This document shows positions 19,736 to 54,392 of a DNA stretch of 64,000 bases, in pieces (positions within the stretch are counted from its first letter, which is position 1; every line of letters begins with the position of its first letter). The stretch is taken from the NCBI RefSeq assembly GCF_040954645.1, contig NC_092811.1, forward strand, positions 119,981,343-120,045,342, read 5' to 3'. The stretch is from Diabrotica undecimpunctata. Lineage: Eukaryota > Arthropoda > Insecta > Coleoptera > Chrysomelidae. Below the pieces are notes generated by a model that saw only the letters and a list, made by a program, of their open reading frames with translations, ran no database searches and was not told the DNA's origin. Made by a program: the position numbers and the translations under genes.

Positions 19736-20942
19736 AAATCAGAAATCAAATCAACTTGCTAAAAGAGGATCGAACGAATAAAATGGACCAGCTGTGACTC
19801 TAACATCACCAAAAGCTGCAGTTAATAGGGCTATTCACAGATAATCTATAGTGGATTTACACGGTGGACCATGCAAAATAAACAAATGGAACTGCTACAT
19901 ATGGGGAGCAATTAACTAAGAACAGTAACAGGAATATTGTTAATACCCTTAAGAACCAGATATACAGCAAAAAGAGAATTCCTGAATAAAATAAACATTT
20001 GTAATGGAAATCTTAACTGCACACAATGGGGTACAAAAATTCTAGAATTAGAAGAACCAACGAAAAAATAATAAAACTATGGAAAATCCTTAATGAGAGC
20101 AGAGATAGCGGCACAAATAATCTGATAGTTGAACTATGGTAAAAAGATTGACGAAATACAGAGTGAAAATGGTAAGAAACAAGTGGCTATATTTAGTAGC
20201 GGTAGAACTGTAATTGTTAAAGATTGAGAACTGGCAGAGCAAAGCTCGAAACAGGAAAGACTGACCGAGTAATGCAACCAAAGTAAATCGAAATGTCCGG
20301 TAGCAGCCAAACAACCAAGCACTTATATCAAAATCTTTATCAGTACTTTTAAAGAAAATATATCAGATTCAAATGCTAAAAGAAAATACCGTTTAAAAGG
20401 TAGTCTATATATTCGCGTATTCAACAAGCTATTTATTTTAGTCGAGCGATTCAGTATTCCCAATTGGATACAAAATTGCCACTGGCACACATGGACTGAA
20501 ACCCACAAAAAGCTTTTTGCTAAATAATGTATCGTTCACAGGTTTATGAGGTATATAAAATGAAGCAAATTCAGCCTTCGGTTACCGTAATGCATTTGCA
20601 TCGAAAAGTAAATTACACCGAATATCATCAAGTATTAGATATTTATAGATCTGGAAATAATGAAATTATACAACTAGCCAACATAAGCGTAGATGTTATC
20701 TCTTTAAAGAGAATGTATTCATTGTATGCAAAGCACGTAATTTATACTTTAAGGTAGCTAATGAAAAAATACAAGAATAAATAAAACAAATTTATCTATG
20801 TGAAACCTATTGAACTTACATCTACACAGTACTTGAACTCCAAGAAATGGATATACAGTATAACATGACAAGTTAAGTCCACTACCACTTATCGCTTTGA
20901 CAAATTCACTGGAAGACTAGTTTACCTTCATCCATGAGTGCC
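19736..20942. other. No recognisable gene
   Basis: Probably further decayed LINE sequence at its left end. The 76-codon frame at 20527-20757 has no motif I recognise. Confidence 0.45.
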
Positions 20943-20946
20943 ATAG

Positions 20947-22344
20947 TGTTGCTGAGAGGGGGCATTTGGGCCTGTAGGACCCATCGCCGGCTCTTCGGAC
21001 TTTTTCCTGTCTCCGGAATTGGAACGGGTGTTTACCATCTTCGTTTGTCGCTAGTGAAATGGGTCAGTACTGTTGCCGTTACAGAATAACCGTTACAGCG
21101 ACAAGTATCTGTTACAGGTAACGGTTCCAAGGAACAGTTACAAAATAACAGATCAAAAATGGAAAACAGAACAGGTAAAATACTAAGTATTCCTTGACTT
21201 ACGGAAGGAATAACTTGGTAAACAATAAAATAAAATGGTATGATAAATGTAGTGCAAAGAATATGTTTCTAAGTGTTTCTTGACTTACGGAAGAAACAAC
21301 TTAGAATGAAAAGTAAAAATGTACAAGATCAAAGAATAGAAAAATGCAGAAATATGAGTAAAAATACACAAGGTAAAAGAATGCAGAAATGTTCTTAAGT
21401 GTTTCTTGACTTACGGAAGAAACAACTTAAGAGAGGAATATAAACAAATGAAATAAGTAAATATAAAACAATATGTGAAAATATGTCTGTGTTTCTTGAC
21501 TTACGGAAGAAACAACTTAGAACAGAAAAACAACAAGAGAATCAAATATGCAATAGAAGAATATAAATATTTACAAGTGTTTCTTGACTTACGGAAGAAA
21601 CGACTTGTAATATAGAATAGAAAAAAATAAAATGCAAAAATAAGAATACAAATATTTACAAGTGTTTCTTGACTTACAGAAGAAACAACTTGTAATAGAA
21701 AATAAGAAAATAAAATGCGGAAAAGATATAGAAATATAGCTAAGTGTTTCTTGACTTACGGAAGAAACGACTTAGCGTAAAAATGAAAATAACAGGGACA
21801 AGTATACGAAATATCAGAAATAAGAGTGCAAATATGGAAATACTTCTAAGTGTTCTTTTGACTTACCGGAAAAGAACGACTTAGACACACAGTGAAACAC
21901 AAGTGAAATATCAGAAAAATATTTCTAAGAGTTCTTTAACTTACCGGAAAGAACTACTTAGACACAAATACAAGAAATATAAACAATCAAAAATAATCAA
22001 ATAAAATAGTAAATAAATCAATACATGAACAATAGTAATATTCTAACCTGAAAAGGTCTGAATATACGACAAATGCTAAAATAAAAAGGTACACAGGAAA
22101 TCAGAAATAAAACAATAGCTCAAGTTGATACAATAAAGCACCGACTAGGTCTACAGTAAGAAGAGGCAAGCTCGACTGACCGATGAGAGAAAATCTACCT
22201 GCTTTTATGTAAAACAAATCCTTTGTTTTACGTAGCGAAAGTGGAATTTCCCTGCATCGAATCAATTAGAAATTTGGATTTGGCCAACCTTGGAATTCCC
22301 AAGTATTTTAACCGATATCCAAATTCCTTGATGCGTCGAGGACA
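20947..22344 (-). repeat. 3' LTR
   Basis: 1398 bp, matching 26354-27751 base for base wherever I compared them except 20953. It contains the hairpin array (21183-21962) and, near its end, the same short start of the gag frame (MVNTRSNSGDRKK) as the 5' LTR. Confidence 0.95.
21183..21962 (-). repeat. Array of nine hairpin-forming repeats inside the 3' LTR
   Basis: Nine units at 21183-21218, 21269-21304, 21394-21431, 21486-21520, 21571-21610, 21656-21695, 21739-21776, 21845-21885 and 21924-21962. Each is a stem with a one-base bulge and a loop around GACTTAC (plus strand). Stems vary but stay paired: ATTCCTT/AAGGAAT, GTTTCTT/AAGAAAC, GTTCTTTT/AAAAGAAC, GTTCTTT/AAAGAAC. Outer arms CTAAG/CTTAG, CTTAAG/CTTAAG and TTACAAG/CTTGTAA also covary. 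On the RNA-sense strand every loop contains GTAAGT. The spacers between units are unrelated A-rich sequence. Confidence 0.9.
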
Positions 22345-22360
22345 TCCCCCCTCCTCTGAA
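22345..22360 (-). other. Polypurine tract
   Basis: On the minus strand TTCAGAGGAGGGGGGA abuts the TG of the 3' LTR, the position and composition expected for the plus-strand primer. Confidence 0.85.
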
Positions 22361-22795
22361 AGACCTAACGGTGCTAAAAAAATTTATTAATAAAAAAAAA
22401 TCAAACAATACAATAATACAAAAAGTCCTTAACCTAAAAAAAAGAAATACAATACAAAGAAATACAAAGAAATACAATTCAAACTTACGCTAGCGACTAA
22501 GATATGTTACACTTAACTATTATAATATCCAGATGGCCCAGGTGGTCCCGGTGGTCCAGGTGGTCCAGGTGTTTCGGCCAGGCTACTTAATTCACCCGGC
22601 TGGGGCCTTACGACGTTTCAGAACACGTAGAGTTACTCGATTCACCCTGGTGTCTGTAACGTTTCGTAACAGGGCCCCGTTATCCTCAGCTGTTCTGGCA
22701 GGGCTACTTAATTCACCCTGAGGAAGGTCTTACGACGTCGTGAAGATATAAGGTTACTCAGTTCACCTTGATATCTACACGTGTCGTAATAAACC

Positions 22796-25588
22796 TTAAT
22801 CCTGCTCTGGAGGTTCGTCCCTAGGTGGTGGAGCAGCGCGGATGTCATCTACATGGATGGTCCTATTCACGTCCCGGTCGCGGTGTATCTCATAGGTATG
22901 ATCGCCTAGCACCTTCAGGATCGTGTGTGGTCCCGTCCATGTCGGTCCGAAGTTCCCTCGGACGTGGTTCCTCACCATGACCTGCTCTCCTTCGATGAAC
23001 CTCCTGGCGGGTGGAGCGTTAGGGTTGTCAGGAAACATGTTCCGCGCATATACAGTGGCCTTTTGAACCGCTCTGGCAACCCTTTCGTCTCGTCTGGCTG
23101 CGGTGTTTGCCAGACGATGCTCACGCTGTGTTTCTTCTGCGCGCCGTGGCAGATAGCCTAGCAGAAGTTCAGCGGGTGTTTCCTGGGTGGCCTCGTTATT
23201 TTTAATGGCCCGGATGGTCTCGTCTTGTCCTGGGTGGTTGGCCTCCGAGTCGTGATAGACCTTCATCACGTCCTTCCGGAGGGATGGGGGTACTATCAGC
23301 ATCCTGTGGTCTGGTCCAGCGTTGTAGTAAGCGGCGTTATCGACTAGTGTGAATTCACGGAGAAGGTTTTCTTCGACTTCGTTCCGTGGTCCACGTCCGG
23401 AGATCTCTAGGTAGCGTCTCCGAAACCGCTGCATACCGTGGTGTGTCTGGTGACTTCTCCGGATTTTATCCTGGAGTGGTAGGTCAACCAGATCATCTAG
23501 GATGGGGTTGATGTCTTCCTCCTCGTCGACGTCCTCCATCATACATAGTAGAGGAAAGGACTCGTCTTCCTCCACGTCCGTTGTAGGCCAGCTAAGTCGC
23601 ACCACTTCCTCGTCTTGGTCAGCTTCTTCTTCTCTCTCCGTGGTTGGGTTCCTGGACAAGTGGTCAGGGAGTTCGTTCTCCTTCCCTGGGATATGTATCA
23701 CGGTGAAGTTGAACTCCTGAAGTAGCAAGGCCCATCGGGATAGTTTGGCCTTGTCTTCCTTGAACCGATGGAGCCACAGGAGAGCCTGACTGTCGGTGTA
23801 CAGCGTGAAGTGCTGATCCTGGAGGAAGTGCTTGTACCTCTTGAGTGCCCAAACTAATGCGAGGCACTCTTTCTCGTTAATATGGTAACGGGTTTCTGCT
23901 GGTTTTAACTTCGTGGAGGCATATGCGATGACTCTCTTGTCGTCTTGGGTTCCTTGGAACAGGACTGCGCCCATGCCGACATCGGAGGCATCCGTCTGGA
24001 GGCAGAAGGGTTTGGACGCGTCTGGTCGGTGGAGTAGGAGATCTCCCTCGATTTCGATCTTGAGACGTTGGAAGGCGGCTTCTGCGGCGTCGTTCCAGTG
24101 CATCCGTCTCTTATTACCCTTGGTGAGGTCCGTCAAGGGTGTTATGATGTCCGAAAATCGAGGGATGAAATCCCTTAATCAGTTGGCTGTCCCGATGAAG
24201 CTTCGCAGTTGCTTCATCGTCCGTGGAGTGTCGAAGCCTTTGATTTTCTCCACATGCTTCTCCAGAGGTTGGGTGTTGGCAGAGGTGATTTTGTGTCCTA
24301 GGTACTCCAGTTCGTCTGCTGCGAATTTACACTTTTTTAGGGATGCCCATAGTCCGTGTGTCCGAAGTCTCTCTAGAACCAGGCGGAGGTGGTTCTGGTG
24401 TTGGGTCCAGTCTTCTGAATAGATGATAATATCATCCATGTATACCTTGATGAAAACATCGATGTATCCTGCGAAGACTGAAGTCACGAGCTTCTGGAAC
24501 ACAGCTGGTCCATTCTTGAGGCCGAAGGGCATCACCGTAAATTCGTATGAGGACCCGTCAGGCAGGCTGAACGCTGTCTTCGGGCTGGAGTCCTTGTGCA
24601 ATGGGACTTGCCAAAATCCACTCTTCAGATCTAAGGTGGTGAAGATCTGAGCCGTGCCAATCTCTTTGATGGAGTCGTGGATTGGTGGCATGCTGGAGGC
24701 TTCGTCGATGGTCACGTTGTTAAGCTTCCTATAGTCTACGCAGAAACGGGGGGTGCCATCCTTCTTGGTTACAATAACCACCGGGCTATTGTAAGGAGAT
24801 TTGCTGGGGCGGATGACTCCTGCGGCTAGCATCTCTCTCACCTCCTTGGCCATTATCTGCTTCTTCTCCGTAGAATATTTATAGGGCTTAACGTTGATAG
24901 GCGTGGCGTCGGTCACTTCGATTTTCATTTCGGTGGCCTTGGTGGTCGGCTGACGTAGACGGTCGTCGAAAACGTCATCGTACTCTTGAATCAACTTTTC
25001 AACTTGTTGCAAAGCGAAGGATGGAGCTTGATGGGGTTCCAGCCGCTGCGTCCTGGATTGCCTTTTTGCTGGGTTCTTCCAGTAAATGGTGGTTCTGCAG
25101 GTGGTACCGACGTGTAGACATTTACGTGGTATGTCTACATTGGCCTCTTCCTGTTCCAACCAAGGCATCCCTAACACAACGTCGTGGTTCAAGTCCTCCA
25201 TAACCACGCAGTTGACGGTTGAATCCAGAGTCTCGATGTTAATCTTGACTTCAGCAGTCCCTAGGGTGCGGGACGTGCTGCCCGTGCACGCCAGCTGAAC
25301 CAATCCTGATCCTCGTTGCAGGTCCCGTCTCTGGATCAATCTCTGGTGAATGAAGTTCCCAGATGCACCGGTGTCGACTAAGATCTTCACACGTTGTCCG
25401 TTGATCCTTCCATGGAGTTGGGGGAGGCCTGTCGTCGAGGGTCGTGTCTGAATCGGGTTCAGTTGGGGCACCATCTTCACAACAGGGTTTAGTTGGCGCC
25501 CCTGTTGGCGTTTCCCTGGTTCTGAGGTAGTGGAGGTGGTGGTTGGCTCATCGGTGGCATCCTGGACTGTCTGTTGGGGTTCCTCCAT
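22796..25588 (-). pseudogene. pol: pol: protease, reverse transcriptase, RNase H, deleted integrase
   Basis: Reading from 25588: protease with LVDTGASGNF (D-T-G active site) near residue 70; RT with SPVVIVTKKDG, FTTLDLKSGFWQ, MPFGLKN and catalytic YMDD near 24430; RNase H with LQTDASDVGMGAVLF, EKECLALVWALKR and YTDSQALLWL. A single TGA at 24181-24179 replaces the Trp of a GTANW motif; the same frame continues after it. The integrase part keeps VYHDSEANHPGQDETIRAI and then jumps to EATQETPAELLLGY and the C-terminal TWTGPHTILKVLGDH block, so the D,D-35-E core is missing. Pol overlaps gag by 100 nt in the -1 frame, implying ribosomal frameshifting. Confidence 0.93.
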
Positions 25589-26445
25589 TCCTCGATCGCT
25601 TCAGGGTGGCGTGCTGTGTTGTTTTGACGTGGGGGACGGTAGTGCTGTCGCTGTCGGGATTGTTGCTGGGATTGATGTTGGGGTTTGTTAGCGACGGTGT
25701 TCCGGCGGGTATCAGCTTCCATTCCTTGGGCTATTGTTAGGAGGTCCTCCTCGGTCTTTGGAATGTTCACTCGAAGGCAGATCGCGATGTCGGGTCTCAG
25801 TTGGTTTACGATGGTGATACACCTCTGGTCCTCAGGGGTGTATGGTGCGAGACGTCTGAATAAGGCTGCTTTACCGTTGATAAAGTCCTCCGTGGGTTCA
25901 TCCTTCCGTTGATGTTCTCCATGAAGTTTCAACGTGAGGGCTGAGAGCAAAGCGGGGTCGTTGTACTTCCTCAGGAGACGGTCTCGGAAGGTGTCGTACG
26001 GTAGGTCTGTGTGGGAAAACTTCTGGGCCCATTTCTTCGCGTCGCCGTGGAGTGAGTTGTCGATGAGGTAATCTATCCAATTGTCCTCGTCCACGTCGTA
26101 TTTTGTCAAGAAGGTCTCGGCTTTGGTTAGAAAGCTGAGAGGGTTTTCAGTGTCCCGGCCTGAGAACTGAGGGGGCTTCATATATGAAATCCTGGGCTTC
26201 GGTGGCTCAGGATGAGGCATCTGGGGTGTGGTGCCTTGAGTGGTCGATAGGGCCGTCATCGCTTGCATAAGGGCAGAGATGAAGTCAGCTGTGGAAGGCT
26301 GGCTCGAAGACGGTCCTGGGGTCGTGGATTCGGTTTTAGTGGGTTGGGCGCCATGTTGCCGAGAGGGGGCATTTGGGCCTGTAGGACCCATCGCCGGCTC
26401 TTCGGACTTTTTCCTGTCTCCGGAATTGGAACGGGTGTTTACCAT
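25489..26445 (-). CDS. gag: gag polyprotein
   Basis: 318 residues, intact. A Pro/Ser/Thr-rich N-terminus is followed by a retrotransposon-gag region (PPQFSGRDTENPLSFLTKAETF, WAQKFSHTDLPYDTFRDRLLRKY, LKLHGEHQRKDEPTEDFINGK) and a basic Gln/Arg/Pro-rich tail. No CCHC zinc knuckle is present, so nucleic-acid binding presumably depends on the basic tail. The start at 26445 lies inside the 5' LTR: residues 1 to about 31 are LTR-encoded, and the primer-binding site (minus strand TGGCGCCCAAC) is translated as part of HGAQP. The next ATGs downstream would remove only non-conserved residues, so the exact start is not proven. Confidence 0.9.
   Translation of the reverse strand: MVNTRSNSGDRKKSEEPAMGPTGPNAPSRQHGAQPTKTESTTPGPSSSQPSTADFISALMQAMTALSTTQGTTPQMPHPEPPKPRISYMKPPQFSGRDTENPLSFLTKAETFLTKYDVDEDNWIDYLIDNSLHGDAKKWAQKFSHTDLPYDTFRDRLLRKYNDPALLSALTLKLHGEHQRKDEPTEDFINGKAALFRRLAPYTPEDQRCITIVNQLRPDIAICLRVNIPKTEEDLLTIAQGMEADTRRNTVANKPQHQSQQQSRQRQHYRPPRQNNTARHPEAIEEWRNPNRQSRMPPMSQPPPPLPQNQGNANRGAN
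26336..26353 (-). promoter_or_regulatory. Primer-binding site
   Basis: Directly after the CA of the 5' LTR the minus strand reads TGGCGCCCAACCCACTAA. The first 11 bases match the complement of the 3' end of insect tRNA-Lys as I remember it. It lies within the gag coding sequence. Confidence 0.8.
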
Positions 26446-27751
26446 CTTCGTTTGTCGCTAGTGAAATGGGTCAGTACTGTTGCCGTTACAGAATAACCGT
26501 TACAGCGACAAGTATCTGTTACAGGTAACGGTTCCAAGGAACAGTTACAAAATAACAGATCAAAAATGGAAAACAGAACAGGTAAAATACTAAGTATTCC
26601 TTGACTTACGGAAGGAATAACTTGGTAAACAATAAAATAAAATGGTATGATAAATGTAGTGCAAAGAATATGTTTCTAAGTGTTTCTTGACTTACGGAAG
26701 AAACAACTTAGAATGAAAAGTAAAAATGTACAAGATCAAAGAATAGAAAAATGCAGAAATATGAGTAAAAATACACAAGGTAAAAGAATGCAGAAATGTT
26801 CTTAAGTGTTTCTTGACTTACGGAAGAAACAACTTAAGAGAGGAATATAAACAAATGAAATAAGTAAATATAAAACAATATGTGAAAATATGTCTGTGTT
26901 TCTTGACTTACGGAAGAAACAACTTAGAACAGAAAAACAACAAGAGAATCAAATATGCAATAGAAGAATATAAATATTTACAAGTGTTTCTTGACTTACG
27001 GAAGAAACGACTTGTAATATAGAATAGAAAAAAATAAAATGCAAAAATAAGAATACAAATATTTACAAGTGTTTCTTGACTTACAGAAGAAACAACTTGT
27101 AATAGAAAATAAGAAAATAAAATGCGGAAAAGATATAGAAATATAGCTAAGTGTTTCTTGACTTACGGAAGAAACGACTTAGCGTAAAAATGAAAATAAC
27201 AGGGACAAGTATACGAAATATCAGAAATAAGAGTGCAAATATGGAAATACTTCTAAGTGTTCTTTTGACTTACCGGAAAAGAACGACTTAGACACACAGT
27301 GAAACACAAGTGAAATATCAGAAAAATATTTCTAAGAGTTCTTTAACTTACCGGAAAGAACTACTTAGACACAAATACAAGAAATATAAACAATCAAAAA
27401 TAATCAAATAAAATAGTAAATAAATCAATACATGAACAATAGTAATATTCTAACCTGAAAAGGTCTGAATATACGACAAATGCTAAAATAAAAAGGTACA
27501 CAGGAAATCAGAAATAAAACAATAGCTCAAGTTGATACAATAAAGCACCGACTAGGTCTACAGTAAGAAGAGGCAAGCTCGACTGACCGATGAGAGAAAA
27601 TCTACCTGCTTTTATGTAAAACAAATCCTTTGTTTTACGTAGCGAAAGTGGAATTTCCCTGCATCGAATCAATTAGAAATTTGGATTTGGCCAACCTTGG
27701 AATTCCCAAGTATTTTAACCGATATCCAAATTCCTTGATGCGTCGAGGACA
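26354..27751 (-). repeat. 5' LTR
   Basis: 1398 bp, matching the 3' LTR except 26360. On the minus strand it begins TGTCCTCGACGC, contains the promoter by position, and ends CGGCAACA. It carries the first 31 or so codons of gag. Confidence 0.95.
26590..27369 (-). repeat. Array of nine hairpin-forming repeats inside the 5' LTR
   Basis: Same nine units as in the 3' LTR, offset by 5407 bases. In this LTR the array lies upstream of the gag start on the minus strand, so if transcription starts at or before 27369 it falls in the 5' leader. Confidence 0.9.
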
Positions 27752-27755
27752 ATAG

Positions 27756-28484
27756 GTGGTCCTTAAGTAATTGTACAAAGAGAAACCTAGATTCTGCACT
27801 TTAAAATAATACGATTTAAGCCAACTTGCTTTAATAAAATGTTGATATTAAGAAAGATACAGGGTGTATAAGTGAAAATTTAAAATTTTGTTTTTCGCTA
27901 TAACTTTTACGTTTGTAAATATTTTTGGACAAAAATGTACGGTTGGATGCTTTTGAGTAGGATAAATTATAATTTTATACAAACTTTAATGTAACTAATA
28001 GAGAGCATCACATATGCCACATGTGTGGCATAAATTTGCACTTACCTTTTTTGCTCTTTAAATTAGCTCTATTTTTGTTAAAAAATATTAAAGATACATT
28101 ATTTTTACAAAGAAAAGGTATACTTGTTAGTAACCTGAAAATTCAACCGTTTTCGAGATAATCGCATTTTATAGGTCAGCTGCATAATAATTCTTAGTTT
28201 GATATTTATGCGGTAAAGCACTGAATACCTGTAGATAAACATCATTCATAGTTTATTCTCATTAAAACAACTTAAAGATGATAACGTAACATCACAAAAT
28301 GCTTTGTTATGGGTGCTAAATGTCTTATTGGAGAAAAGATTGTTCATCTTCTTCTTTAGATGCCATGTCCGTATTCAGACGTTGGCCGTCATCATATTTA
28401 CAATTTCTCTTTTCTATCGCTTCTGCTTAAGTTTCTATAATGGTGTTGTATTACTATTTCTCTATTGTAAAATGCTGAAAACCC
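27756..28484. other. No recognisable gene
   Basis: AT-rich, with an ACAGGGTGTATAAG motif at about 27868 that recurs in related forms elsewhere in the window (52214, 52322, 51070) and marks short insect repeats. Confidence 0.5.
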
Positions 28485-29449: not shown

Positions 29450-30670
29450 CGTAATCAGGACGTAAGTGACACACAATTTGGATTTAGAAATGCACTGGGA
29501 ACGAGGGAAGCCCTATTCGCTGTGAATGTACTTGTGCAAAGGTGCATGGATGTTAATCAGCTAGTATATATGTGTTTCTTGGATTACAACAAAGCCTTCG
29601 ATAAGGTCAAACATAACCGTCTCATCGAATTACTTGAAAAGAAAAACTTGGATATGAGAGACATCAGGATCACTAGCGCTATCTACTATAATCAGATCGC
29701 TGTGGTAAAAGAGAACAACGTCTTTTCAAATGAAATACAGATTGAGACGGGCGTCAGACAGGGCTGTGTCCTGTCTCCTACTTTGTTCAATTTGTATTCA
29801 GAGGAAATAATCCAGGAAGCACTAGAAGAACTAACTATGGGAATAAAAGTAAATGGCCGACCAATCAATAATATACGGTTTGCCGACGACACTATTTTAT
29901 TAGCGGAATGTCTTGAGGATTTACAACAAATGGTTGACAGAGTGGTAGAAGTTAGTGAAGAAAACGGACTGTATTTAAACACAAAAAAGACACAGTTTAT
30001 GGTAATTACAAAAGCCCAACAGCGCCAAGAAAACATAACAATACATGGAGAACAAATTAAAAAAGTTGAAAAATATAACTATCTGGGTACAATAATTAAC
30101 GGAAATAATGAGTACACAGAAGAGATTAAGGCAAGAATAGGACAGGCAAGAAATTCTTTTAACAAACTAAAAAAAGTACTCTGCAGCAGAGACATTTCAA
30201 TTTCTTTAAAAATAAGACTTCTGAGATGCTACGTGTTCTCCGTATTATTTTATGGGTTGGAGGCTTGAACATTAAAGAAAGATGTTTCGGACAGATTAGA
30301 AGCCTTCGAGTTATGGGCCTACAGAAGGATATTGAGAATAAGTTGGGTGGATAGAGTCACGAATGTCGAGGTGTTGAGAAGAATGGGAAAAGATAAAGAG
30401 GTTTTGAATACAATTAAAGTCAGAAAACTGCAATATCTGGGACATGTCGTGAGGGGCGACCATTATAACTTGCTGCAATTAATAATACAAGGAAGAATAC
30501 AAGGTAGAAGGAGTCGCGGAAGAAGATGCATCTCCTGGTTAAACAATTTGAGAGCTTGGTTTAACTGCACTTCTGCTGACCTGTTTAGAGCAGCGGTATC
30601 GAAAGTGCGAATTGTCATGATGGTTGCCAACCTTTTTAGAGGAGATGGCACATGAAGAAGAAGAAGAGGT
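29450..30670 (+). pseudogene. RTE-like LINE, nearly intact RT half
   Basis: Frame opens with DTQFGFRNALGTREALFAV, then CFLDYNKAFDKVKHNRL, TGVRQGCVLSPTLFNLYSE, IRFADDTILLAE (catalytic FADD), NTKKTQFMV and YNYLGTIING. A single TGA (about 30266-30268) replaces the Trp of a EAWTLKK motif, and the same frame continues through FELWAYRRILRISW, LQYLGHVVRG and GRRSRGRRCISW to GDGT-stop at 30655. A GAAGAAGAAG tail follows. Only the 5' end (endonuclease) is truncated. It is the least decayed LINE of the window. Confidence 0.9.
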
Positions 30671-41594: not shown

Positions 41595-43120
41595 TGTCGT
41601 TTTTTAAACTTCTTCTCTTCTGTCTGTTTTTCAATGTGCCTCCAGTATGTTGACGTTCCATCGTTTTCGTGGTATTCCTACTGATCGTATTCTTATTGGG
41701 GTCCTCTTGCCGTCCTTACTACTCTATTGGTTGTCATTCGGCTTATATGATCGTTCCATTCTACTCTTCTATTTCTTAACCAGTCCTTGATGTTCTCCAC
41801 CTTGCATCTACGTCGTAAGTGTTTTCATCTCTGCTGTTCCTAACATCCTTTTTTCCTCTCTGTGTCAGGTCTTATTGCTGCCGCGTATGTTATTGGTCTG
41901 ATGACTGTTTTGTAAATTCTGCCTTTCGTTTCTTTCCCGATATTTTTATTTCTCCATATTGTTTCATTTAGGCAGCCTGCGGCTCTGTTTGCTCTATTCA
42001 CTTGATCTTCCACTTCGGTTTCGAGTTTTCCGTAGCTAGATAATGTGATGCCTAGATATTTAAACTCCATCACTTGTTCTATTATCTGACCTTCCAGCTC
42101 CAATTTACATCTTAGTAAATTTGCTGTTGCAACCATGCATTTTGTCTTTTTTGGGGAAATTAACATATTAAATTTTCTGGCGGTTATATTAAATTGGTGC
42201 AGCATACGTTGTAAATCATCTTCACTTTGAGAGAGTACTATTGCGTCGTCTGCATAGCAGATTATTTTAAGTTGTTTTTCTCCCATTTGGTATTCTTTTT
42301 TAGTTCTTACTTTTATTATTTCTTCCATAATTAGGTTGAACAATAGAGGACTCAGGGAATCTCTCTGTCTTATCCCATTGCCAGCTTCATTAGGGTCGGT
42401 TAGTTCTTCTTCTACTTTTACTTTTATTGTGTTGTTTTGGTAGATATTTTCGATCGTCTTGATTATTCCTAGAGGTATCTCTCTTGCATATAGTAAGTGG
42501 ATAAAGTCTTTTAATTTGACCCGGTCAAATGCCTTTGTAAGGTCCACAAAACATAGATGTGCCGGTTTGTTGTATTCTAATGATTTCTCTTACACTTGCC
42601 TCATTATAAATATAGCGTTGGTGCATGATCTTCCCGACCTAAAACCTTGTTGTTCTTCTGCTAGTGTTATAATTTTATTTAATTTATTTCTTTATTTGTT
42701 ATCGCTTTGGTTGTTAATTTTATTGTTGTGTTTAATAAATTAATTCCTCTGTAATTTTTCGGGTCCAATTTGTCTCCCTTTTTGAAGGGAGGTATTAGGA
42801 TGCTTGATCTCCATTCTTGAGGAATTCTGTTTTGTTTTATTATTTTTTGAATTAGTTTTATTATTTTTTGGATTAGTTTTAATAGTTCTTTGGTCAGATC
42901 TGGTCCTCCGTACTTTATGAGTTTGTTCGGTATTCTGTCCTCTCCTGGTGATTTTCTATTTTTTAATTTCCTTAATGCTTCCTTTACCTCTTCCTCCTCA
43001 ATATTTATTTCTTCGTTTGTCGTCACCTCGGTATTGGTGGTTCATTATCGTCAGCTTTAGCAAATAGGGATCGAAAGTAATCTACCCATGTGTCCTTGGT
43101 GGAAATGTGTTTCGTTTTAT
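41595..43120 (-). pseudogene. RTE-like LINE: RT domain and 3' end
   Basis: From 43120: WVDYFRSLFAKAD, then EVKEALRKLKNRKSPGEDRIPNKLI in segments, IPQEWRSSILIPPFKKGD, NYRGINLLN, MDLTKAFDRVKLKDF, GNGIRQRDSLSPLLFNLIMEE, IICYADDAIVLSQ (YADD), SPKKTKCMV and FKYLGITLSS. After a frame change near 41840 it continues to NRRVEWNDHISRMT. RT core motifs are complete; a few shifts break the frame. It is the 3' half of an element whose 5' half lies to the right (43481-46440). Confidence 0.88.
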
Positions 43121-47967: not shown

Positions 47968-49215
47968 CGAGGCATGTTTTTTATGTAAGTACAGACGCCA
48001 TTACAGTCTGATTCTCCATTGTATACTTGTTTACTCCAGTGTTTAAGATGCCTCCAACAATCGTGAGTCACGCTGATTGTGAAGTACGGGCTGTTATACG
48101 ATTTCTTAGTGCTAAAGACGTAAAACCGATTGATATTCATCGTGAGATCGTTGAAGTTTACGGACAAAACATTATGAGTGATGGAATGGTAAGGAAATGG
48201 GTGAGAGCATTTAAAGATGGCCACACAAATATGCATGATGAAGAACGGAGTGGGCGTCCTTCGGTCGTTAATGAAAATTTGGTGCAGAAATTGGACGAAA
48301 AGGTGAGAGAAAACAGACGCTTTACAATTCCATCATTGTCCGACTGTTTTCCTCGGTATTCTCGTAGTGTTTTGTATCTCATTGTTATCGAGAACTTGAA
48401 TTACCGGAAATTGTGTTCACGTTGGGTTCCAAAAATGTTGACGGATTTGCACAAAGCCCAACGTTTAGGCAGTGCATTGCTTTCCTTGAGCGGTACCACA
48501 GTGAAGGTGAAGATTTTTTAGACTAAATTGTTACTGGTGACGAAACGTGGGTGGCCTACGTCACACCAGAATCGAAACAACAATCCATGGAATGGCGACA
48601 TTCATCATCACCCAAAAAAATGAAGTTTAAGCAAACAATTTCTGCCCGGAAAATCATGTGCACAGTTTTTTGGGACAGAAAAGGAGTATTGCTAGTGGAG
48701 TTTCTGCCTCCTAATGAGACAATCAATGCAGCGTCTTATTGTGAAACATTGAAAAATCTGCGTCGTGCAATCCAGAACAAAAGACGTGGCAAGTTGAGTA
48801 AGGGTATCGTTTTACTGCATGACAATGCCCGTCTACATGTGGCTAATCAGACCAAAGATCTCATCAAATCATTTAAATGGGAAACTCTAGATCATCCTCC
48901 ATACAACCCAGATCTGGCGTCCAGCGACTATAATTTGTTCCAGCACTTGAAAGAACACCTGGGCGGTCAGCGTCTTCAAGACGACAACGAAGTCAAAACA
49001 TTTGTGATGCAGTGGTTAACAAGTCAGGCGGCAGAATTTTATCAGGAGGGTATTCTAAAACTGGTGCCACGTTATGACAAGTGCCTCAATATTCACGGAA
49101 ATTATGTAGAAAAGTAGATTAAGGTACAGGCTTTCATGTAAAAATAAAATTATTGCCATATCTTTGCACGTCTTTTTTAATTCCAAAACGGTACTTACTT
49201 AAAAAACACGCCTCG
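47968..49215 (+). mobile_element. mariner transposon
   Basis: TIRs of about 27 bp (CGAGGCATGTTTTTTATG left, inverted CGAGGCGTGTTTTTTAAG right, few mismatches) flanked by TA at 47966-47967 and 49216-49217. The element is 1248 bp, near the 1.3 kb usual for mariner. It is inserted in a LINE. Confidence 0.93.
48048..49117 (+). pseudogene. mariner transposase, frameshifted
   Basis: Starts MPPTIVSHADCEVRAVIRFL. A helix-turn-helix region contains WVRAFKDGHTNMHDEERSGRPS, typical of mariner. Catalytic blocks are VTGDETWV (first Asp), LLHDNARLH (second Asp) and YNPDLASSDYNLF (third Asp), fitting the D,D34D pattern. A frameshift near 48480 and a TAA at about 48532 lie just before the first catalytic block, so the copy is inactive. 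Length without breaks would be about 356 residues, close to the family's 345. Confidence 0.93.
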
Positions 49216-51496: not shown

Positions 51497-54392
51497 TAGA
51501 CTTCGGCAAATATGCATATTGCATATTTTGCATATTTTGCATATTTTATGCAAATATTTCATATTTTGGCATATTTGTATAAAAGTTTGCATAAAGTGCA
51601 TAAAAGTTCAGATTTTTATACTGTATTTGAAAATTTTTAAACATACCAATTTATTTCAATTCTTGTATAAAATTTTGTAGTCATTATAATCAAGAAATGA
51701 TCTAAGTACGTAATCTCTACAGGTACAAAACATTTACAATTTCAAAAAAGATCAATTTAAGTAGCCCTCAACATTCTTAGAAAGTCTCGGTCACTGAGGC
51801 ATTCAGTTATTGGATAATCGCTAAGGGTTTGCTCATTTGCATTTTATGATCTAATCCCCAAATCTATCTACAATTTATTGTATCTTAACAGCAGGTAAAC
51901 GGCTAATAGTTTTGTTCCTAATTTAGGGATTTTCCAAAATCTCCCAGTTTATTGAATTAGGTACCTAAACATTTCTAATTTGATGCTCAGATTTGTAAAT
52001 CATTTTTGTTTTGATATTCAAAGCGTAAACACTCGTTGTGCGTAACAAAAAGGAAGATTGTGATTTTATAATGCCTAAAACAACCAGTGCTTCAACTTGG
52101 ATTAAACCTTATAAAGAGCTGTCTATGGATATGGGAAAAATCTACTGTTCAGTCTGTGGCAAAATTGTAAGTATCTAATATTTTCTATTAAATATCTAAT
52201 ATTTCATACATACAGGGTGTTTCCAAATGATACTTACAACGTTTGACTGTAGATACTTCTCGAAAAATTGAACAAAACGATATAGTTAATGAGGGGTCAA
52301 ACTTATTTACTTTTCGAGATACAGGGTGTTAAAATTAAAAAAAATTAAATTCTTTTAGTTAATAACAACAATAACTTTAAAACCAATAAACGTATTTACT
52401 TGAAATTTAGTACTCGTAGGTTGTTTTTAAATGAAAAATAGCTTCCTTTAGTGAGAAAAAATTGTCCATGGTACAATACAATGGTGTGTATTTAGAAAAA
52501 ATTTTCACCTTTACTTTTCAGCTTTACTTTACAGCTATTCTAAAACACAATTATTTTTATTGTAATTGAATTAACAAAAAAAAACTTTTGTTGAATTTTA
52601 AAATAAGTTATATGATGTACTAATGGTTAGTAACAAAAACTAATTTGTGGATTAATACTGCATTTAAAACACTTAGCGAGTGTTTTTTTTCCAAACCAGT
52701 TATTTGATTAACCAAAAACACCTTGTATATTTTTATATTTTAAAGGTTGGGTTAAAATAAAGGTTTTTATTTTTATTTATAGATAGCATGTGAGAAGAAA
52801 TTTCAGATAGACCAACTTGTGAGAACTGCTTCACACATTGCAAAAAAAGGAAAAATAGGAGGAAAACATCAAACTTCAATGGCTAAATGTTTCCAATCTA
52901 CTTCAAAAAAATTAGATGAGCAAGAAACTTTTAATGAAGACTTGTGTCGCGCATTAGTGTCTGCAAACATACCGCTTTCAAAATTAGCAAATGTAAATTT
53001 TAGTTCGTTTCTAAAAAAATATTGCAAACTTAATGTTCCAAGTGATCGGTCTCTAAGAAGAAATAATGTGAACGGGCTATACTCGTCGGTGTTAATTAAT
53101 ATTAAGGAAGAAATTGCAGATAATTATTTTTACATATCTGTAGACGAAACCACTGATTCCTCAGGAAAGTATATTGCTCATTTATTGATTGGTGTTCTTA
53201 AAGAAGATACCTTACCAAAATCTCATCTTATTTCATGCCAGCAACTTGAGAAAACAAATGCTTTAACAATTTCGCGTTTTATCCAAGAAACATTAGCCAC
53301 TTTTTTTCTTCCGACAACTATTCCTTCTAATAAATTACTGCTTATTTTATCGGATGCTGCTCCTTATATGGTGAAAGCAGGACAAAATTTAAAAATATTT
53401 TTCCCAGATTTAATACATGTTACTTGTGTAGCGCATGCATTAAACAGAGTTGCAGAGGAAATACGAAAAAAGTTTCCTCTTGTAAATACCATGATATCCA
53501 GTGTCAAAAAAGTATTTCTTAAATCTCCTATAAGAATTCAACTTTATAAAGAAATGCTACCTAACATTCCTCTTCCACCACAACCTATTTTAACGCGATG
53601 GGGAACATGGTTAGAAGCAGCTAATTTTTATGCAGATCATTTTGTTAAAATAAAGAACATAATTGATACGTTAACAGATGAAAGTTCCCAATCTCTTTTG
53701 GATTCTAAACAAACTTTTCAGAGTAACTTGCTTCAACAAGAACTTTCATTTATAAAATCAAATTTTAGTTTTGTTCAAAAAACAATTACTCAGTTAGAAT
53801 CACCAAAACTGTCATTGTTCGAAAGTACAGCATTAATAAAAGAATTTGCGTCATGTTGTCGGAACGTTAGAGGTAATATTGGAAAAGATATTTTAAAAAA
53901 ATTTGAAGCTACTATGGAAAAAAATAAAGGTTACCATATTCTTTCTGAAGTAGTCAGTGTTCTAGCTGGAAATATTTCGGAAACAATTAATTTAGAACCA
54001 AATGTTTTGGTTAGTTTGAAAAATGCTCCCGTTACATCAGTTGATGTTGAACGAAGTTTTTCCATATATAAATATATGTACTCAGACAGAAGCCACAAGT
54101 TTTTGTTAGAAAATTTTGAACACCACTTGGTCATTTATTGTTACCATAATTCTAAATAAGTTTATTCATACTTAAAAATGATGTAGTTACTTAAAATAAA
54201 TGTAAATCTTAATGAATAGTAGGAAATATTTAGTTATGTACACTTTTTTTTTAAATAAAATTGTTACTATTTTACGCTTTTTTTATTTATTTGTATGCAT
54301 ATTTTGTAAAATATTTGCATATTTTCGGGTAAACACGTGCATATTTATGCGCATATTTTCTACATTTTTATTTGCATATTTGCCGAAGTCTA
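51497..54392 (+). mobile_element. hAT transposon with 8-bp TSD
   Basis: Ends are inverted repeats TAGACTTCGGCAAATA and TATTTGCCGAAGTCTA (with slight differences further in). TTTATGTG at 51489-51496 and 54393-54400 is an 8-bp TSD, the hAT hallmark. Both subterminal regions are dense in GCATATTTT motifs. It is inserted 2 bp before the ATG of a piggyBac gene. Confidence 0.95.
52080..54159 (+). pseudogene. hAT transposase, two exons, frameshift at the start
   Basis: Exon 1 ends KIYCSVCGKI at 52166 (half of a BED-type zinc finger). A GT-AG intron (52167-52782) follows, then exon 2 from 52783 reads IACEKKFQID.LVRTASHIAKKGK and stays open for 446 codons to 54159. Blocks: FYISVDETTDSSGKY (first catalytic Asp), LILSDAAPYMVKAGQNL (second), CVAHALNRVAE, and a C-terminal dimerisation part APVTSVDVERSFS. 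The ATG at 52072 is one base out of frame with the finger, so a single-base loss probably killed the start unless translation begins at an inner Met. Otherwise it is well preserved; resembles CGGBP1-like hAT proteins. Confidence 0.88.

Follow-up and report, generated by a model that had tools for sequence, protein, structure and literature searches.

What is the function of nine hairpins that lie in tandem within the long terminal repeat (LTR) of a beetle Gypsy retrotransposon, each of which displays the sequence GTAAGT in its loop? The array was noticed in a preliminary description of a 64,000-nucleotide stretch of the Diabrotica undecimpunctata genome (hereafter 'the window'), which proposed that it might be a packaging or dimerization signal, a decoy for U1 or for splice donor recognition, or an array of DNA-binding sites. 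We have examined the element that carries these hairpins, its relatives in the same genome, and the evidence that bears on each of these possibilities.

The hairpin array resides in both LTRs of a young Ty3/Gypsy element

The minus strand of the window encodes a young LTR retrotransposon whose two LTRs, each 1398 bp in length, differ at a single base that falls outside the hairpin array (Table 1). Several features identify the element as a member of the Ty3/Gypsy group, including paired LTRs with TG...CA termini, a short target duplication (4 bp, CTAT), a primer-binding site that we presume to be complementary to tRNA-Lys, a polypurine tract, and the domain order protease, reverse transcriptase, RNase H (gag-asp_proteas, 49.6 bits; RVT_1, 130.5; RT_RNaseH, 132.7), followed in the same open reading frame (ORF) by a partial match to an integrase zinc-binding domain. 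This last match is to a portion of Integrase_H2C2 and falls short of the cutoff (23.1 bits versus 25.5), and a Pfam search of the window copy revealed no integrase core domain, which we take to be a loss in this copy. As a result, the window copy is unlikely to be autonomous. A search with the pol protein yielded 3485 matching proteins, and some among the best 120 listed are from beetles.

The gag product matches two D. undecimpunctata proteins at 89% and 77%, and scores 29.0 bits against Ty3_capsid, which is borderline relative to the cutoff of 29.1. Only two cysteines are present, and the CCHC zinc knuckle that we looked for in the Gag ORF is absent. With its start codon within the LTR, gag reads through the primer-binding site as coding sequence (window positions 26343-26445). 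The sense strand of the LTR (20947-22344) carries neither AATAAA nor ATTAAA, and a poly(A) signal is not evident. Elsewhere, the window includes ORFs that we presume, from their resemblance, to derive from other mobile elements: two of mariner transposase type (48027-49117), a 446-amino acid ORF of hAT transposase type (52819-54159), and non-LTR reverse transcriptases (29522-30268 and 41840-42547).

Table 1. Features of the retrotransposon and its hairpin array (window coordinates)
Feature	Position	Strand	Remarks and basis
Hairpin u1 (first in sense order)	21922..21964	minus	loop CCGGTAAGTT
Hairpin u2	21843..21887	minus	loop CCGGTAAGTC
Hairpin u3	21737..21778	minus	loop CCGTAAGTC
Hairpin u4	21655..21696	minus	loop CTGTAAGTC; outer arms ACAAG/CTTGT
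Hairpin u5	21570..21611	minus	loop CCGTAAGTC; outer arms ACAAG/CTTGT
Hairpin u6	21482..21523	minus	outer stem lost in window copy through 2-nt deletion
Hairpin u7	21392..21433	minus	outer arms CTTAAG/CTTAAG
Hairpin u8	21266..21307	minus	loop CCGTAAGTC
Hairpin u9	21180..21221	minus	inner arms ATTCCTT/AAGGAAT; one outer-stem C.A mismatch in sense RNA
3' LTR	20947..22344	minus	holds the array first described; 1398 bp, TG...CA; 99.93% identical to 26354-27751, one mismatch
Polypurine tract	22345..22357	minus	adjoins 3' LTR; sequence
pol ORF, RNase H and partial integrase zinc-binding domain match	22796..24136	minus	Pfam domain matches
pol ORF, protease and reverse transcriptase	24179..25588	minus	Pfam domain matches
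gag ORF	25489..26445	minus	318 aa; ATG (26445, LTR position 1307) within 5' LTR
Primer-binding site TGGCGCCCAAC	26343..26353	minus	inside gag ORF, directly adjoining 5' LTR; sequence
5' LTR	26354..27751	minus	second array copy at 26587-27371; LTR pair comparison
Predicted leader	26446..27584	minus	1139 nt, AUG-poor; contains 5' LTR array (26587-27371)
Inr-like TCAGTC	27581..27586	minus	LTR 166-171; predicted RNA start 27584; sequence; also in five other leaders inspected
TATA-like CATAAAAG	27609..27616	minus	LTR 136-143; sequence; also in five other leaders inspected

The array itself is real. Nine hairpins of approximately 42 nt, all with GTAAGT in the loop, occupy positions 21180-21964 (LTR positions 381-1165), where the minus strand is the sense strand, and an identical array is present in the other LTR. 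Chance is excluded as the source of the repeats, given that the window contains 14 occurrences of the motif CTTYYGTAAGTCAAG with two or fewer mismatches, seven of them in each LTR, compared to an expected 0.52, and none of 100 shuffled sequences reaches this count. The array also folds more stably than dinucleotide-shuffled sequences (40 for each strand), with z-scores of -5.7 for the sense strand and -6.2 for the antisense strand. When the 5' leader is folded, the GUAAGU sequences are predicted to be unpaired with probabilities of 0.85-0.91.

Eight of the nine units fold as an inner stem, a bulge and an outer stem, and thus the singly-bulged stem that the preliminary description attributed to every unit holds with one exception. 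Unit u6 does not form the regular fold owing to the loss of two bases from its outer arm. This deleted form appears only three times among 30 loci, two of which are the LTRs of the window itself, compared to 26 appearances of the intact form. Loops are 9 nt long in seven units (six CCGTAAGTC and one CTGTAAGTC) and 10 nt long in the remaining two (CCGGTAAGT followed by C or T). The two bases that precede GTAAGT are CC in six of the nine loops and CT in one.

Units are spaced at 78-126 bp in AT-rich DNA. They share an identity of 0.778 with each other, compared to 0.497 when shuffled, and the 36 nt downstream of each unit are nearly, but not wholly, as unrelated as originally claimed (0.606 versus 0.565 shuffled, sd 0.048), and Tandem Repeats Finder (TRF) also detects a period of 85-90 nt across part of the array. 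A search of window positions 20900-28000 against Rfam yielded no family at the gathering threshold, and only two matches to astro_FSE (18.2 versus 70 bits), both of which lie outside the array.

Related elements carry arrays of variable size

The genome of D. undecimpunctata (1.74 Gb) was searched for relatives with two main queries. The array query returned 41 matches (best 40 of 1127 candidates scored), and a gag query that is blind to the LTR returned 144 (144 of 3434 candidates scored). Among the 63 gag-query loci examined (L053-L115), 61 carry between five and 11 GTAAGT-type units located upstream of gag by position, although these loci were not chosen at random, but are the best matches plus hand-chosen rows. 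The two exceptions are L069, with one unit, and L081, with none. These two apart, unit numbers are mostly seven to ten, and range from five to 14 in the arrays seen.

Three individual loci deserve mention. L081 bears gag, and its 5' LTR matches the window LTR only at positions 1-86 and 1360-1398, while the start of its second LTR matches positions 1-97 as far as the sequence examined extends. L039, found with the array query, carries 14 units and is the largest array seen. L109 appears by eye to be a mosaic, wherein the first units belong to one subfamily and the last units to the subfamily of the window.

All nine loops of the array contain GTAAGT, as the preliminary description stated, but this uniformity is not complete among relatives. 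A search of 80 loci based on stems, without regard to the loop, recovered 596 hairpins that conform to the stem pattern of the window family, and 564 of these contain GTAAGT. Recurrent exceptions are CCGTAAGAC (15 hairpins) and CCGTAAGCC (eight hairpins), which end in GUAAGA or GUAAGC. These recurrent variants indicate that CCG(G)UAAG, and not GUAAGU, forms the core of the loop.

Viral contigs were also searched. The loop pattern matched 22 loci once each, and by eye none of these matches is surrounded by a long stem. Therefore, we consider them to be chance occurrences. The pol ORF, when used as a query, found no relative among these contigs.

A second family combines two classes of hairpins

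The LTR of a second family adjoins copy L035 (L035:2525-3782, minus strand), and likewise includes a gag-like start inside the LTR. Used as a query, it matched 54 pieces with 70-100% identity (40 of 265 candidates scored), and five further copies (L117-L121) were examined. This family carries two GTAAGT hairpins whose stems are quite different from those of the window, and yet the loop CCGTAAGTY is kept. In its second GTAAGT hairpin, two diverged copies have GTGAGT and one has GTCAGT.

The same LTRs also harbor a distinct hairpin class in five or six units, which we call type B, with the core GCGAYAU...AUACGC and long outer stems that are unlike each other. When type-B units were picked by core motif alone (27 units in six copies, with 24 distinct flank pairs), their own flanks sum to a stability of -114.7, compared to -63.9 (sd 8.5) for exchanged flanks, and none of 20,000 permutations was as stable, even though four of the 27 units fold otherwise. 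An earlier version of this test, using units chosen by eye after folding, gave -73.6 versus -48.2, and the true order alone was this stable among 720. The first type-B unit carries a G-C pair in two copies and a U-A pair in three others.

Stem sequences change while base pairing is retained

The preliminary description noted compensatory changes at three stem positions. Compensation is indeed evident, and involves more positions than this: both sides change in six of the 14 base pairs when the nine units of the window are compared. Paired cells make up 95.2% of the total, compared to 85.2% for shuffled alignments, and this value falls from 95% to 36-55% if the partner is slid by one to three columns. 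For four of five covariation measures, none of 500 shuffles reaches the observed value. The fifth, which counts further pair types, is unexceptional (9 versus 7.5, reached by 116 of 500 shuffles). The alignment behind these nine-unit counts was made with MAFFT, which places the inner stem of u2 incorrectly.

Because these shuffles ignore relatedness among units, further tests were added. A total of 662 units were parsed from 80 loci (L023-L102), excluding loops without GTAAGT and hairpins under a pairing threshold. These comprise 147 distinct alleles, 46 of which are found in at least two loci. Six stem positions exhibit two or more Watson-Crick pair types, and as many as four, whereas the two outermost of the eight outer pairs allowed are paired in less than half of the 46 alleles. 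Using a null model that preserves the tree of the 46 alleles, structural pairs rank first through fourth among all 946 column pairs. None of these achieves E < 0.05 when all pairs are considered, but four do so among the 16 structural pairs alone. With the full set of 147 alleles, two pairs reach E < 0.05 over all pairs, and both are structural. Thus, the null that keeps relatedness is exceeded, but only mildly.

A separate test relies on stability rather than alignment. If the arms of the nine units and of two units of the second family are swapped among hairpins, the summed folding energy rises from -164.6 kcal/mol for the units' own arms to a mean of -94.7 kcal/mol, and none of 20,000 permutations is as stable as the natural combination. 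Moreover, the hairpins are the more constant portion of the array. Among 30 rows, which are the best matches of the window's family and include two that are identical, deviations from the commonest letter per 1000 cells number 2.7 in stems and 3.3 in loops, compared to 7.8 in spacers, with gaps at 0.4, 0 and 3.7, respectively. Taken together, these observations provide good support for the hairpin structure, and they make it probable that this structure is under selection, as had been proposed.

Which nucleic acid forms the structure is a separate matter. Over all alleles, 1598 cells are Watson-Crick pairs, 55 are G.U, 35 are A.C and 80 are other mispairs. The excess of G.U over A.C leans only weakly toward the sense RNA. 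The antisense strand folds slightly better, and cruciform DNA would be expected to covary as well, and so these data do not settle the choice between RNA and DNA or between sense and antisense.

The array falls within a putative leader that is depleted of AUG

Two motifs upstream of the array, CATAAAAG and TCAGTC, are situated at the usual distance from each other and presumably represent a TATA box and an initiator. If so, transcription would start near position 27584. The array lies between these promoter-like motifs and the gag ATG, all within the LTR, which makes its proposed place in an RNA leader probable, although the presence of the array in the transcript is predicted from motifs.

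From position 27584 to the gag ATG, there is a single AUG where 12.3 are expected, and none of 500 shuffles has so few. The antisense counterpart of this triplet (CAT) serves as a control, and it is not depleted in the window leader (22 versus 19.7 expected). Each of 12 leaders examined, including that of the second family, contains zero to two AUGs compared to an expected eight to 18, and for none of these leaders was a count as low obtained in 200 shuffles. However, ATC, AAT and TAG are likewise scarce in most of the 12 leaders, and CAT is slightly low in the second family (17 versus 22.1), and the scarcity of these other triplets means that AUG depletion may partly reflect composition. The plain reading of an AUG-poor leader is that ribosomes scan through it, which suggests that it is retained in the mRNA rather than spliced out.

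Candidate functions for the array

A nearly constant loop, presented on exchangeable stems and placed before gag, is what might be expected of a docking site that binds several protein molecules at once. We tentatively favor the hypothesis that the array acts in cis as a multivalent element within the genomic RNA's 5' leader, where Gag binds it and full-length RNA is thereby selected for packaging and/or dimerization. This is the leading candidate, with a likelihood that we place somewhat short of even. Each unit of approximately 42 nt folds into a bulged hairpin whose stem can be exchanged, but whose loop stays nearly the same (CCG(G)UAAG, extended by one or two bases), and the tandem units together would form the multivalent docking site. 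The likeliest partner would be the element's own Gag, and contact between Gag and the array would mark the full-length RNA. We infer that RNA, rather than DNA, is the active form. The lack of a CCHC knuckle suggests that this Gag would need another route by which to choose its RNA, and thus Gag is the first candidate for the role of binding partner. To our knowledge, little is known about how Ty3/Gypsy elements with such a Gag select their RNA. The packaging option listed in the preliminary description therefore becomes the leading one.

A broader version of this proposal is more doubtful. Perhaps a clade of beetle Gypsy elements carries a modular RNA leader encoded by repeats, in which arrays of two or more hairpin classes can replace one another (type A bearing the CCG(G)UAAG loop, and type B the GCGAYAU...AUACGC core). 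Such arrays would grow, contract and be exchanged by recombination from one family to another. A single unit would then serve as one docking site within a multivalent code for assembly or packaging, used by a Gag protein that lacks a zinc knuckle.

The main rival retains the same RNA hairpin array, but assigns it to a host RNA-binding protein that would act on the AUG-poor leader to control its translation, its export or its stability. All of the covariation and arm-swap evidence serves this explanation equally, a long leader with few AUGs is well suited to ribosome scanning, and the uniform loop may resemble the targets of host proteins. We nevertheless judge it unlikely, because no host motif was identified and, as noted above, nothing in the region reaches an Rfam threshold.

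The GUAAGU core of the loop matches that of a 5' splice site, and this raises the possibility that the array recruits U1 snRNP to block premature polyadenylation or to act as a decoy. The prevalence of this sequence in the window and among the 596 hairpins is in keeping with such a role, as is the absence of AATAAA and ATTAAA from the sense strand of the LTR, and its best point is the GTGAGT that two diverged copies of the second family carry in their second hairpin. Units u1 and u2 can pair with U1 one base beyond the GUAAGU core, with a predicted energy of -9.3 kcal/mol. However, the other seven units reach only -5.7 kcal/mol (those with CC) or -5.4 kcal/mol (the one with CT), compared to -13.2 kcal/mol for the consensus. 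These preceding bases do not pair with U1, and CC is kept across both families. Recurrent loop alleles that end in GUAAGA or GUAAGC, the GTCAGT of one diverged copy, and the AUG depletion, which suggests that splicing does not remove the leader, all weigh against U1 as well. As a result, the decoy that the preliminary description put forward is not favored, and we regard it as quite improbable.

Also very unlikely is an array that operates as DNA, with double-stranded sites or cruciforms serving as an enhancer or insulator in the manner of the Su(Hw) sites of Drosophila gypsy. The placement of units at intervals of 78-126 bp along AT-rich DNA within an LTR and the palindromic symmetry of the units agree with this idea, and the strand comparison leaves RNA versus DNA unsettled. 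A protein that reads duplex DNA would be expected to fix the stem sequence, yet here both arms change together, and the conserved loop is asymmetric. Fixed duplex sites, as in the DNA-binding array first envisaged, fail to explain covarying arms, although cruciform DNA would explain them.

Finally, tandem duplication combined with template switching during reverse transcription, which can match both arms in one step, might repair hairpins without selection and would account for the tandem period in part of the array and for mosaic arrays such as that of L109, but a purely mutational origin is highly improbable when the asymmetric loop and bulge are preserved, when the loop recurs in two families whose stems differ, and when hairpins vary at roughly one third the rate of spacers and are almost gapless. 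Several other ideas were considered and set aside, including Smaug-type CNGG loops (CCGG is present in two of the nine loops), heat-shock elements, an ETS-like GGAA in the stem, a four-base pairing of the loop with the anticodon loop of tRNA-Lys, and kissing loops, for which GUAAGU is not self-complementary.

If the multivalent RNA element that we favor does exist, then its many copies of one covarying hairpin, whose number varies between elements, constitute a natural titration series, and unit number provides an axis along which binding, packaging and translation could be measured. The array is also an instance in which a likely RNA structure within an LTR would be classed by repeat annotation as a plain tandem repeat.

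Comparison with known systems

No LTR leader of matching build was found in our literature searches, which covered open-licence PubMed Central, where absence is weak evidence. Three known systems share some of its features. The insulator of Drosophila gypsy is composed of about a dozen similar Su(Hw) sites with AT-rich spacers in the 5' UTR, and therefore resembles the beetle array in that a Gypsy leader contains a series of similar sites. However, Su(Hw) sites are motifs of duplex DNA, whereas the arms of the beetle hairpins covary.

Retroviral packaging signals (psi) are formed by a few unlike hairpins in the leader and are bound by Gag. The likeness is that of structured hairpins in the 5' leader of a genomic RNA just upstream of gag. 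For the beetle element, the hairpin structure and its place upstream of gag are observed, and its inclusion in the transcript is predicted from motifs. The difference is that one kind of hairpin is repeated five to 14 times at a spacing of approximately 85 nt within an LTR, and would be recognized by a Ty3/Gypsy Gag that has no zinc knuckle.

The preliminary description knew of no LTR with this architecture. Although this precise build did not surface in our literature searches, the LTRs of plant Sireviruses carry arrays of palindromic repeats, and thus likewise contain a high-copy palindromic motif (PMC2829016, PMC5311732). Sireviruses are Ty1/copia elements whose palindromes are short and symmetric, almost always built on a CGG-CCG core, and located upstream of the TATA box (PMC2829016, PMC5311732). 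In the beetle Ty3/Gypsy element, RNase H precedes the integrase remnant, the array is downstream of the TATA-like box, the paired stems vary, and the near-constant loop is asymmetric. The Sirevirus palindromic array is the nearest analogue known to us of the beetle hairpins, from which it differs in element, place and structure.
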